From: Bacteroides sp.
GTDB lineage: Bacteria; Bacteroidota; Bacteroidia; Bacteroidales; Bacteroidaceae
Length of the DNA stretch: 42,295 bases
Reading direction: 5' to 3'
Assembly (NCBI RefSeq): GCF_029057325.1
Contig: NZ_JAICZW010000150.1
Coordinates: 1-42,295, forward strand
Positions within the stretch are counted from its first letter, which is position 1. Each line of letters starts with the position of its first letter. Positions 22,136 to 36,416 of this stretch are shown here, piece after piece. The notes under the pieces were generated by a model. That model did no database searches. It saw only the letters and a list, made by a program, of their open reading frames with translations, and was not told where the DNA came from. The translations under genes were made by a program, and so were the position numbers.

Positions 22136-22223
22136 GTCGTTATCTGAGGTAGCCTCGGTCGTTATCTGAGACAGCCTCAGTCGTTATTTGAGGTAGCCTC
22201 AGTCGTTATCCGAGGCTACCACA
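22136..22223. repeat. Four 22-bp tandem units, GAGGTAGCCTC core
   Basis: Four consecutive units of exactly 22 bp begin at 22136, 22158, 22180 and 22202. Each starts GTCGTTAT and, except for the degenerate fourth, has a dyad core of the form TGAGG-TAG-CCTCA near its right side. Core centres fall at about 22151, 22173, 22195 and 22217. The array lies downstream of both flanking genes. Confidence 0.9.
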
Positions 22224-22275
22224 GATTTGCACGGGGATTTTAGACCTTGTTTTGTTGAGAAATTTCTTTCTTGCA

Positions 22276-24204
22276 TCACTTCCCGTAGTCATCATACATC
22301 ATCAGTAGATGTGAAGAGCTCCAACTGAAGTGGGGCGCTTTCAGGCGTTCGCCGGTGTGCGTGCCGTAGTTCTCGTGGATGGGAGCACCCTCTTGCAGTC
22401 CGTTCAGGCGGTCGAATACTTGCAGCGTATATTCATCGGCAAGTTTATGGTAACCGTAGTTGCGTAGGCCGCGGATGGCGAAGTAGGTCTGGTCCAGCCA
22501 GATGGGGCCACGCCAGTAGCCGCGCGGGTTGTACTTCGGATTGTCGGCGGCAATGGTGGGGAAGGGGATGTAGGTGGAGAACTTCGCCGTGTCCTGAAGC
22601 ATCGGCAGCATGGCGTCCACCTGCTGTTGCGTGGCGATTTGCGTCCAAAGCGGGGTGTATGCCTCGCAGCCCGGCTCACGGATGAACGAACCGTCCTTCA
22701 GGCGGCGGTCGAAGAAGAAATTCATCTCCTTGTCGAAGAAGTAGTCGGCCACTTGAGCGCTGTAGTCGGGTGCCTCGAACGGGAGGTCCAGCAGTCCGGC
22801 AAACTTCTTCAGCAGCTTGCATTCTAGGGCGAGGTAGGCGTTGAGGTCCACACTTTCTTGGTCGGTGCTCCAGGCATCTTCGTACCCTTCGTTTTTCAGC
22901 ATCACGGCGTCGTCGAAGCGGATGGCGTTGTCCATGCCGCTTTCCCAGGCGGCAGCTTCCAGCGTTCCGTCGGTGGAGCCGTATTCGCATATACCGTTGT
23001 GGTTGTGGTCGCGCTTTTCGTACCACCACTTATAATAAGAGAGCAGTTGGGGGTACATTTCGGCTACAAAGGCGGTGTCGTTGGTATGCGTGAAGATTTC
23101 GTCCACCGCCCAGCATACCAAAGGCGGCTTGCTGTCGCGGGCGTTGTTCTCCGACGGGTCGGTATAGATGCAGTCGATAATCATGCCGTCCGGCAGTTGG
23201 TAGTCGAACATGGCGCGGATGTTGTTCTTGGCAAGTTCGGGGTCGAATTTGGCGGTGCCTGCACTGAAGCGCCAGCTGTCCCATGCCCAGAAGCCGACAA
23301 AGTAGCCCACAGCATGGCTGGGCACGATACCCTCGTGGAGCAGTCCGCCCCGGTGTGTGCGCCAGTTGGAGATGAGGGTGGTGACAGCTTTTACGGCGAT
23401 ACGGTCATACTCCGGTTTCATGTCATTACGCAGAATCTTCGAGAGGTAGCCTTCCCACCGTTCGGAGTTGGCTTGCAGTGCGGGAGCGGGATTGTTGAGC
23501 ATCTCCGGCAGGGCGGGCAAGCCTGCTGTCATCTCCTTTTCGGAGGTGAAGAAGGAGATGGCCACGTTGACGGTCTCGCGAGGGGAACGGATGAGGGCGG
23601 TATAGTTATTGCCGTTCAGTGTCGGTGCCACGCCGGGAGCGAAGGTCATCGCCACACATTCACCCGAGGGATGGCGGGCTATGACCGAATTCTGTTCTAT
23701 ATTGACTGTCACGTCTTTGCCCCAACGGCTGCCTGTCAGTAGCAGGTCTTCTGCTGTATCGGCCTTGATGCGCAGCAGGGCGGTGGAAGCGCTGATGAAG
23801 TTCAGCCGTTGCACGATGCTTCCGTTGTCGGAATGTGCTGACAGATAGAGCTCGCCGGGATAATAGCAGGTGGAGTCGGGAACAAAAACGCCTTGCGCGT
23901 CACTGGCGAAGCTGACCACCGCCGCCGACTGCGCCATCCATTGGCGGCGGAACATGTCCAGACTGAACGGTCCGCAGAAGCCGTTGACCCATTGCTCTTT
24001 TTCGGGCAGCGTGAAGCCCATCCACGAACCCGCATCCGTGAACCAGCCGTAGCAGCGGTGCAGGGTGTCGGGGGTATAGGCGATGTCCAGTATGTTGGCG
24101 AAGTCATAACGGCGCTCCGCCTTGTTCTTCGTGCCGGGGGTGCAGGCGGTAAAGCCGGCGGCCAGCAGTGCGAAGAGGAAAAAGGAATGAAGTTTGGTTT
24201 TCAT
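22276..24204 (-). CDS. GH63/MGH1-like exo-glycosidase, lipoprotein
   Basis: A 642-residue exported enzyme with an (alpha/alpha)6-barrel catalytic domain, probably an alpha-glucosidase related to E. coli YgjK (GH63). The lipoprotein signal ends at Cys21; I chose the Met at 24204 because the 17 residues before it come from the spacer repeat. An N-terminal beta-sandwich-like half (about 30-245) precedes the barrel. Key segments: FWAWDSWRFSAG (305-316), WESGMDN with candidate acid Asp425, and HENYGTHTG with candidate base Glu611. Plain trehalase (GH37) is a less likely alternative. It is the last gene of the minus-strand sugar region and follows the beta-galactosidase, which suggests both act on one glycan. 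Fold and clan are fairly sure; the exact linkage is not. Confidence 0.8.
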   Translation of the reverse strand: MKTKLHSFFLFALLAAGFTACTPGTKNKAERRYDFANILDIAYTPDTLHRCYGWFTDAGSWMGFTLPEKEQWVNGFCGPFSLDMFRRQWMAQSAAVVSFASDAQGVFVPDSTCYYPGELYLSAHSDNGSIVQRLNFISASTALLRIKADTAEDLLLTGSRWGKDVTVNIEQNSVIARHPSGECVAMTFAPGVAPTLNGNNYTALIRSPRETVNVAISFFTSEKEMTAGLPALPEMLNNPAPALQANSERWEGYLSKILRNDMKPEYDRIAVKAVTTLISNWRTHRGGLLHEGIVPSHAVGYFVGFWAWDSWRFSAGTAKFDPELAKNNIRAMFDYQLPDGMIIDCIYTDPSENNARDSKPPLVCWAVDEIFTHTNDTAFVAEMYPQLLSYYKWWYEKRDHNHNGICEYGSTDGTLEAAAWESGMDNAIRFDDAVMLKNEGYEDAWSTDQESVDLNAYLALECKLLKKFAGLLDLPFEAPDYSAQVADYFFDKEMNFFFDRRLKDGSFIREPGCEAYTPLWTQIATQQQVDAMLPMLQDTAKFSTYIPFPTIAADNPKYNPRGYWRGPIWLDQTYFAIRGLRNYGYHKLADEYTLQVFDRLNGLQEGAPIHENYGTHTGERLKAPHFSWSSSHLLMMYDDYGK

Positions 24205-24233
24205 TTCAGGTTTATGATTTATGATGGATGATG

Positions 24234-24330
24234 GAACACAGAGGCACAGAGACACGGAGAAGATTCTTTCTCTTTCTTATCTCCTTACTCTCTCTAAAAA
24301 TATTCTCTGTGTCTCCGTGCCTCTGTGTTC
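24234..24330. repeat. Spacer inverted repeat of CACAGAG words, copy 1
   Basis: The arm at 24234-24260 (begins GAACACAGAGGCACAGAG) pairs at all but two positions with the arm at 24304-24330 (ends GCCTCTGTGTTC) around a 43-nt pyrimidine-rich loop. It fills the gap between the beta-galactosidase stop and the glucosidase start. A related pair of arms lies on the other side of the beta-galactosidase gene. Confidence 0.85.
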
Positions 24331-35643: not shown

Positions 35644-36249
35644 ATGCTATTACCTTATTTGAATAAAGACCTGATAGAAGCCGGTTGCGACGAGGCGGGA
35701 CGCGGCTGTCTGGCGGGTGCGGTCTATGCCGCCGCCGTTATCCTGCCCAAAAACTTCGAGAACGAACTGCTGAACGACTCCAAACAACTGACGGAGAAGC
35801 AGCGCTATGCCTTGCGTGAGGTGATTGAGAAAGAGGCTTTGGCGTGGGCGGTAGGCATCGTCTCTCCCGAAGAGATAGACGAAATCAACATCCTCAACGC
35901 CTCTTTCCTGGCCATGCACCGTGCCATCGACCAATTACAGATGCGTCCCCAGCATCTGCTCATCGACGGAAACCGGTTCAAGAAGTACCGGGACCTGACT
36001 CACACCACCGTGGTGAAGGGCGACGGCAAGTATCTTTCCATCGCCGCCGCCTCCATTCTTGCCAAAACCTATCGCGACGACTACATGAACCGCCTGCATG
36101 CGGAGTATCCCCGCTATGATTGGAATAGCAACAAAGGCTATCCCACCAAGAAGCATCGTGCGGCCATTGCGGAATACGGCACCACACCCTATCATCGGAT
36201 GACGTTCAATCTGTTGGGGGACGGGCAGCTGACGCTGGATTTCGGATAA
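35644..36249 (+). CDS. rnhB: Ribonuclease HII
   Basis: A 201-residue enzyme that cuts the RNA strand of RNA-DNA hybrids and removes single ribonucleotides from DNA. The catalytic DEAGRG motif (Asp16, Glu17) is present, as are [18 protein letters not shown] (third acidic residue), [21 protein letters not shown] and the tail [11 protein letters not shown]. The length is normal. A small hairpin follows the stop. Confidence 0.96.
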
Positions 36250-36251
36250 GG

Positions 36252-36274
36252 CCTCTCTCTTCTTTAGAGAGAGG
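36252..36274 (+). terminator. Hairpin after rnhB
   Basis: CCTCTCTCT (36252-36260) pairs with AGAGAGAGG (36266-36274) around a 5-nt loop, directly after the rnhB stop. No U run follows, so termination strength is uncertain. Confidence 0.45.
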
Positions 36275-36328
36275 ATATAAATGAAGGTATGTTTTAATGT
36301 ATTGATTATCAGCGTTGAATAGGTGGCC

Positions 36329-36416
36329 TGACAGACACTTGTGTTCAACGTGACAAACACTTGTGTCTGTCACGTCAGACACTGGACTTCTGGAAGACAG
36401 ACACAAGTGTCTGTCA
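36329..36416. repeat. Four 22-bp tandem units, ACACTTGTGT core
   Basis: Units of 22 bp start at 36329, 36351, 36373 and 36395. Units two and four are near-perfect palindromes over almost the whole 22 bp, with cores ACACTTGTGT and ACACAAGTGT between TGACA/AGACA and TGTCA ends. Unit one is a half-diverged copy and unit three is the most degenerate. Confidence 0.85.

Follow-up and report, generated by a model that had tools for sequence, protein, structure and literature searches.

Here we have examined three short tandem arrays, A, B and C, in a 42,295-nt stretch of Bacteroides sp. DNA (contig NZ_JAICZW010000150.1; "the window" below means this whole stretch), and we find that they belong to a class of intergenic arrays of the genus in which a period of about 22 bp is shared by many unrelated repeat sequences, or words. 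Array A occupies the gap in which hppA and a GH63/trehalase-like gene converge, array B lies upstream of a SusC gene, between it and a TPR gene, and array C separates rnhB from gpmI (Table 1; genes are our own codon-model calls). The window's own genome (G000) is a draft of 209 contigs, 84.6% complete; G and L numbers denote genomes and fetched loci, respectively.

Table 1. Arrays, associated elements and flanking genes in the window.
Feature	Position	Strand	Description
hppA	19818-22019	+	
Hairpin adjoining array A	22099-22126	unassigned	CCCCTCTCAGAAGT/ACTTCTGAGGGGGG
Array A	22135-22222	+	four 22-bp units AGTCGTTATCTGAGGTAGCCTC; tandem repeat finder (TRF) and inspection
GH63/trehalase-like gene	22276-24255	-	
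SusC gene	start 33584		
Array B	33734-33799 (feature to 33803)	+	three diverged 22-bp units around CGAAAACATGGCTTGTTGCATC
TPR gene	3' end 33852		
rnhB	35644-36249	+	
Short C element	36297-36429	+	~132 bp conserved between copies; alignment of 28 copies; right end CGGGAAATA
Left motif of short C element	36302-36312		TTGATTATCAG
Array C	36329-36419	+	four 22-bp units around GACAGACACWWGTGTCTGTC; units 3-4 run opposite to units 1-2
gpmI	start 36698	+	

The original prediction described three intergenic arrays of unrelated sequence that have in common a 22-bp unit, about four units and a dyad core in each unit. This is partly confirmed: all three lie between genes, the four units are borne out for A and C, and B is weaker, with three. 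For array A, TRF reports a period of 22 over 22135-22215 (3.7 copies, matches 84%, score 127), and a more diverged fourth unit reaches 22222. Its dyad core by inspection is CTGAGGYAGCCTCAG, with an asymmetric 7-bp spacer, yet A fails the formal dyad tests (p 0.453 for whole units; cluster median 0.189 for the local test). In copies L002 and L004 a hairpin resembling the one beside array A flanks the array from the opposite side. In array B, units 2 and 3 are 77% and 73% identical to unit 1 (TRF score 75; score 19.3 in the lag-22 scan below) and no dyad core is supported (p 0.55 whole-unit, 0.148 local); the array is weak, yet its period is above chance, about 0.02 segments of score >=18 being expected per 42 kb (from 0.65 per lag in 1.44 Mb). 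Array C shows dyad cores by inspection as well as long inverted repeats (16 nt at 100%, 24 nt at 92%). Because its unit pairs 1-2 and 3-4 stand in opposite orientation, a plain lag-22 scan misses it, and the direct scan of the window gave no match at this site. The sequences are indeed unrelated: A and B fall into separate word clusters, and the other copies of C form a cluster of their own (the window's C is not in the clustered set).

To generalise beyond the window, we counted high-scoring self-overlaps at each lag from 8 to 59 in 1.4435 Mb (N masked) of stretches from 17 genus genomes, the window included, with low-complexity segments discarded. At score >=18, lag 22 stands out with 37 segments, against 12 at lag 11, seven at 33, 16 at 44, two at 55 and five each at 21 and 23; among background lags, multiples of 3 average 1.31 segments (at most five), and those that are multiples of neither 3 nor 11 average 0.65 (at most five, at lag 23). 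The excess persists over thresholds from 14 to 25 (51, 41, 37, 33 and 22 segments). The original prediction had let its proposed class stand or fall with an intergenic lag-22 excess over shuffled controls, and the excess is there: the 166.7 kb of called intergenic DNA holds 36 lag-22 segments, versus none in each of 12 dinucleotide shuffles, and at threshold 14 holds 50, versus one match in one of the 12; lags 19-21 and 23-26 give 0 to 5 intergenic segments each. The 36 assignable segments among the 37 represent 22 words and come, with the remaining one, from nine of the 17 genomes. Several 21- and 23-bp segments are of the same kind, for example the four units of ATCTCAGCTGCTGAGATATAC, and six of ten are dyadic by the whole-unit test; the predicted 22-bp unit therefore holds with the correction that the period of the class is 21-23 bp, with a strong mode at 22. 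A single intergenic region of G040 (L114:7678-8124) contains three neighbouring arrays of unrelated words, with periods of 22 (11 units), 21 and 23. In the same genome an 11-bp word, CTCCGTATNNN, recurs at L112, L098, L104, L105, L107 and L115 and produces lags of 11, 22, 33 and 44.

Pooling all fetched genus loci, a set enriched for A and C, which drew loci in, gave 103 separate arrays at score >=18, of which 91 have lag 22, seven lag 21 and five lag 23. By BLAST clustering these form 36 words, with 24 (A), 24 (C), 8, 6 and 5 arrays in the largest, two arrays in each of five and one in each of the other 26. Ten of the 36 words are thus represented by two or more of the collected arrays, and in two of these words the paired arrays come from different genomes. 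Unit number rounds to three or four in 89 of the 103 arrays, under a score threshold that disfavours two-unit arrays. By the local dyad test, 22 of the 36 words are dyadic (median p<=0.05), so that the palindromes predicted in the units are present in many words without extending to every one; whole-unit tests give p<0.05 for 19 of 37 lag-22 segments versus seven of 33 repeats at lags 12-32, six of those seven having lag 21 or 23 and the other lag 24. The dyads are 13-20 bp long and 2-9 bp apart (by eye), and their cores are better conserved than the spacers, dyad columns out-conserving other columns in 20 of the 22 words that are dyadic (p 9e-6 by comparison with shuffled columns).

The arrays are also largely confined to intergenic DNA. 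None of the 96 placeable pooled arrays of score >=18 lies within a called gene (seven others stand at contig or stretch ends), and at score >=14 (n=128) two 21-bp arrays do. In a set comprising stretches picked without regard to arrays together with the window (87% coding), 46 of 47 arrays could be placed and all 46 are intergenic (16 convergent, 22 tandem, 8 divergent). Relative to their shares of intergenic bases, convergent gaps are over-represented (p 0.0013) and divergent gaps under-represented (p 0.04), and 18 of the 22 tandem arrays lie nearer the 3' end of the upstream gene (p 0.004), these p values assuming independent arrays, which copies of one family are not; the same holds for 40 of 57 tandem arrays in a wider, partly family-selected set.

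Presence in the gaps on either side of gpmI is lineage-specific. In the window, where it holds array C, the rnhB-gpmI gap spans ~450 bp; in G024 it lacks the array and measures ~140 bp. The MAFFT alignment of these two gaps was poor, and G024 is taken as an empty site from the length of its gap and from gene ends that match. In the gap 3' of gpmI, G007 and G024 carry an alignable array of about six units, and no array is found in that gap of G018, G011, G015 and G016; among 30 gpmI loci scanned, three have a lag-22 segment of score >=14 (G007, G024 and, at a different place, G015). Behind hppA, 13 of 80 named relatives (loci around hppA, grouped by the taxon names in their titles) carry no array of score >=13 except for a weak stretch in L312 (score 14). 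In two loci from Bacteroides metagenome-assembled genomes (L320, L339) rnhB directly follows hppA, and the site of array A therefore lacks a clean orthologue there; the window has ~13 kb between the two genes (22276-35474; GH, lacZ-type, LysO, SusCD and TPR genes), so that arrays A and B fall inside, or border on, an insertion or rearrangement specific to the lineage. Separate from the arrays, a dispersed ~58-bp repeat (CTTTTAACTCCTAAGCCGACTTGTCGGCTGATAACTCC...) lies at 36500-36557 of the window and recurs in the same genome at contigs C88 and C50 (98% and 95% identity) and, over 42 bp, at C43. The remaining tandem repeats of the window (24010-24044, 5524-5608 and 38018-38075) are inside long open reading frames and are of another class.

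Some words have spread as whole arrays. Array A type is found at 10 loci of its own genome (all 23 candidates scored; the same 10 in a second search) and array C at at least 65 loci in G000, where 100 of 131 matches to its pattern (units 1-2, <=3 mismatches) were listed; the same pattern has 51 matches in G028 and three in G040, and gives none when read backwards, and an earlier C search scored 40 of 206 candidates. Array B, by contrast, is a singleton in its own genome (no second copy at E<=0.001), with a single other match, of 36 bp, across 61 genomes of the phylum. Among 60 genus genomes, its own included, C is present in three and A in seven (some A matches being just 30-36 bp), and the words are therefore lineage-specific. 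Two copies of C (L016 and L017) have perfectly palindromic centres.

Family C in addition appears to have been taken up by an IS982-type miniature inverted-repeat transposable element (MITE). Many C copies are of this long form (C-long), ~229 bp with the terminal inverted repeat (TIR) CCCGTTGGCGGAATTAA and short target duplications mostly judged by eye; among the copies listed they make up 21 TIR-bounded rows, alongside L205 of another word, with two elements counted twice. One copy (L142) has an exact 9-bp target duplication at the fixed boundary, and in many others duplications of 7-9 bp are shifted by 1-2 nt (by eye). In G040, six pairs of the same TIRs stand 1026 bp apart; the copy read (L103:5694-6719) encodes a transposase of the IS982 family (NF033520, E 4e-70), and the element shares its ends with the MITE that bears array C in other genomes. 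Short C copies, including the window's, have the core in common with C-long and no TIRs in the 28-copy alignment. At L205:7727-8031 (G057), an array of another word (TTCAGTATACGACTGAA) is bounded by TIR-like ends similar to the termini of the C MITE; a target duplication is not clear there.

Taxonomically, the class is sparser in the other Bacteroidota sampled than in Bacteroides, the genus suggested by named loci with 88-89% HppA identity. Three further genera of the same family (90 kb) gave one segment at score 18 and three at score 14, other families of the order (11 genomes, 256 kb) gave no lag-22 segment, and other orders or classes (ten genomes, 400 kb) gave one match, which is GGTTG-rich. 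Of the named hppA loci, the 11 of Prevotella type (200 kb) hold two lag-22 segments, the 41 other, mostly Bacteroidota loci (772 kb) hold five (Parabacteroides L269 and L285, and three in L309), and the 18 of other phyla (282 kb) hold none.

Our leading reading, offered as a tentative one, is that the class represents extragenic arrays of Bacteroides akin to repetitive extragenic palindromes (REPs) and bacterial interspersed mosaic elements (BIMEs), whose phased dyads act as DNA. The arrays, mostly of three or four units centred two turns of the helix from one another (21-23 bp, with 22 the mode) and dyad-symmetric in most words, would act at the DNA level behind genes and between convergent genes, much as REP/BIME elements do. 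A genome holds several words independent of one another, and some of these have multiplied to tens of copies. Each dyad would bind a symmetric protein such as a dimer, and the fixed step would reflect neighbouring dimers packed on about the same helix face; the geometry would thus be constrained while words drift or get replaced. Cooperative dimers would require such a combination, in which the dyad is conserved, the spacer varies and the step stays fixed at two turns. The arrays are probably bound by a dimeric protein; we infer this binder, as we do the machinery that copies the arrays.

Several observations weigh against this interpretation. Neither a binding protein nor a mobiliser has been found. 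Fourteen of the 36 words, including A and B, fail the local dyad test, and neither the recurrent 11-bp direct-repeat word of G040 nor an 11-unit array is dyadic. Density is uneven, the eight of 17 genomes lacking a lag-22 segment being sampled at 20-40 kb only, and no array occurs in the 184 kb of ten hppA loci named Bacteroides, Phocaeicola, Paraprevotella or Bacteroidaceae, a zero below the genus-mean expectation (Poisson p 0.009). In the 41 mostly Bacteroidota loci, moreover, lags 41 and 42 are as high as lag 22 (5 and 6 segments). Finally, the hairpins formed by A and C are long and strong on both strands (z -3.6 to -9.1), which together with the palindromic centres of L016 and L017 makes a role as RNA or cruciform possible, and the wobble count that speaks to an RNA role, 47 G.U versus 44 A.C pairs on the sense strand of tandem-context arrays and hence no excess, pools related copies.

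The original prediction also proposed that geometry, rather than one word, is what is selected or copied; that the arrays have a geometry rather than a word in common stands, since it extends over all 36 word clusters. Taken further, geometry could itself define a new class of element, three or four dyads two turns apart that have arisen over and over in a single genus, in dozens of unrelated words, and that would be read by a multimeric DNA-binding protein or its paralogues, organising or insulating gene ends; we consider this possible, although less likely than the REP/BIME-like interpretation.

The mechanism suggested at the outset, local duplication of a palindrome at a two-turn period, leads to an alternative we judge unlikely: that the arrays are functionless mutational products, palindromes slipping or template-switching and duplicating locally at this step, and are intergenic because coding DNA is intolerant of them. 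Adjacent units are the most alike (0.747 for units 1-2 and 0.726 for 3-4, compared with 0.691 for 1-3, 0.668 for 2-4 and 0.627 for 1-4), although the arrays were chosen by adjacent similarity and this gradient is therefore biased. Singletons such as B, the differing unit number among C copies of G040 (by eye) and the many independent words agree with such a process as well. Local duplication can nevertheless account for at most part of the picture: ten words have multiple arrays, some dispersed whole with position-specific units, family C moves as an entire array and many of its copies reside in the IS982-type MITE. Furthermore, slippage leaves unexplained why cores are conserved above spacers and why the array of about six units 3' of gpmI aligns between G007 and G024 without internal gaps; nor should a mutational step be limited to certain taxa, yet the 400 kb of other orders or classes gave just the GGTTG-rich match and the 282 kb of other phyla none.

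Equally improbable to us is a non-autonomous mobile element. In this account a transposase would recognise the array in trans, in the way that REP-associated tyrosine transposases (RAYTs) recognise REPs, and its multimer would set the geometry. The five largest words, partly so large because A and C brought loci in, are suggestive of mobility, as are the ~132 bp that short C copies have in common despite lacking TIRs and the lineage-specific presence in the rnhB-gpmI and gpmI-3' gaps, but no mobiliser was found. The IS982 transposase explains only the long form of C, and a Y1/RAYT gene is absent from eight of the nine array-bearing genomes (G000, G021, G026, G040, G003, G007, G016 and G057, of which G040, G021 and G026 are complete and G000 is 84.6% complete) and present in G012. 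Across the genus, Y1 is found in 12 of 60 genomes at E<=0.001, with 11 above the cut-off. At five Y1 loci examined (L156 and L344-L347, of 18 listed matches), no dyadic 22-bp array flanks the gene, and a RAYT/REP system as the direct cause is accordingly unsupported; other palindromes (GGCTGAAAGCC, GCCCTGAAAGGGC) flank the gene in three of the five (L345-L347), and a single purine-rich stretch with lag 22 (score 18.8) occurs in L347. In L345 and L346, from two genus genomes, 20-bp tandem repeats adjoin the Y1 transposase genes. Flanks offer little more: no 9-mer stands out across the 36 words, the best 8-mers recurring in four (e.g., CAAAGGTC; 0.02 expected, uncorrected), and inverted repeats at the 99% control level surround only seven of 99 arrays (three of C, one of A, the six-unit array of G021, by far the longest, L116 and L115) in a scan that catches only 3 of 23 C arrays, and TIRs around the arrays in general find little support.

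The least likely account is that the arrays function as RNA, forming, at the 3' ends of mRNAs, a series of hairpins that terminate transcription, stabilise the message or serve as processing sites: the bias towards 3' ends and convergent gaps, the strong folding of A and C on both strands, the terminator-like hairpin adjoining A and the terminator-like stem that the gpmI array follows (by eye) all accord with it, but there is no sense-strand wobble excess, compensation within units was not found in 17 words, B folds no better than shuffles (z -1.0 and -0.2) and no Rfam family matches at the gathering score. Over the same 17 words, units 1.4/2.3 pair no better than 1.3/2.4 (0.616 versus 0.610), leaving selection for either a long hairpin or unit hairpins unsupported; family C alone gives 0.67 for 1.4/2.3, 0.65 for 1.3/2.4 and 0.55 for self-pairing. 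In Rfam, the window has no match, and six array loci have five, all to microRNA models and all below gathering.

Repeat families are usually defined by a common word, and a search by word would return nothing here beyond scattered repeats with no relation to one another; a search by lag exposes one geometry across a gut genus and is applicable to any genome. If the arrays are a binding platform, they point to a chromosome-organising or gene-end system in Bacteroides; if they reflect a mutational step, they measure a two-turn duplication process, and comparison of strains can separate the two. The original prediction knew of no named element of this description and would have given way to an already described family; among open papers, no named family fitting this class was found.

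REPs sit at gene 3' ends and in convergent gaps, locations that the present arrays favour as well. The closest likeness is to REP/BIME/REPIN elements with their RAYT (TnpA-REP): both comprise short, clustered extragenic palindromes with lineage-specific words at high copy, although 14 of the 36 words here are not significantly dyadic. REP systems have a cognate Y1 gene in the genome, flanked by the same repeat; here Y1 occurs in one of nine array-bearing genomes, and none of the five Y1 loci examined has a dyadic 22-bp array. The present arrays differ further in their 21-23 bp step and their many words per genome. Subclass 2.6, the "atypical secondary structures" of Bacteroidetes, is described as dispersed structured repeats without GTAG that flank a tnpA-REP gene (PMC6006769); it resembles our arrays in host phylum and structured dispersal and is set apart, by that description and not by sequence, through the tnpA-REP flanking, which was not found here. 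BrickBuilt, a Porphyromonas gingivalis MITE, contains a 23-nt minisatellite of one word, with 1 to 22.8 units per element and the TIR GAGACCTT... (PMC4596501). Like the present arrays it is intergenic, from Bacteroidales and built of tandem units of about two turns, with a leader and tail and TIRs in some copies, and like C-long it is an array within a MITE; the portion of that paper's text consulted makes no mention of a dyad, and distinguishes BrickBuilt, at the level of text rather than sequence, by its single word and its own TIR, that of C-long being of IS982 type. IS982-family MITEs themselves resemble C-long, whose TIR is that of the 1026-bp element of G040, and differ from the short C copies and most other arrays tested, which are without such TIRs. 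The TAACTGA heptamer repeats of Beggiatoaceae, Cyanobacteria and five Bacteroidetes, which in the main genome lie mostly just upstream of start codons (PMC4679880), are likewise short intergenic direct repeats, but of a single heptamer word. Taken against these systems, the arrays look like an uncatalogued relative of the bacterial palindromic repeats.

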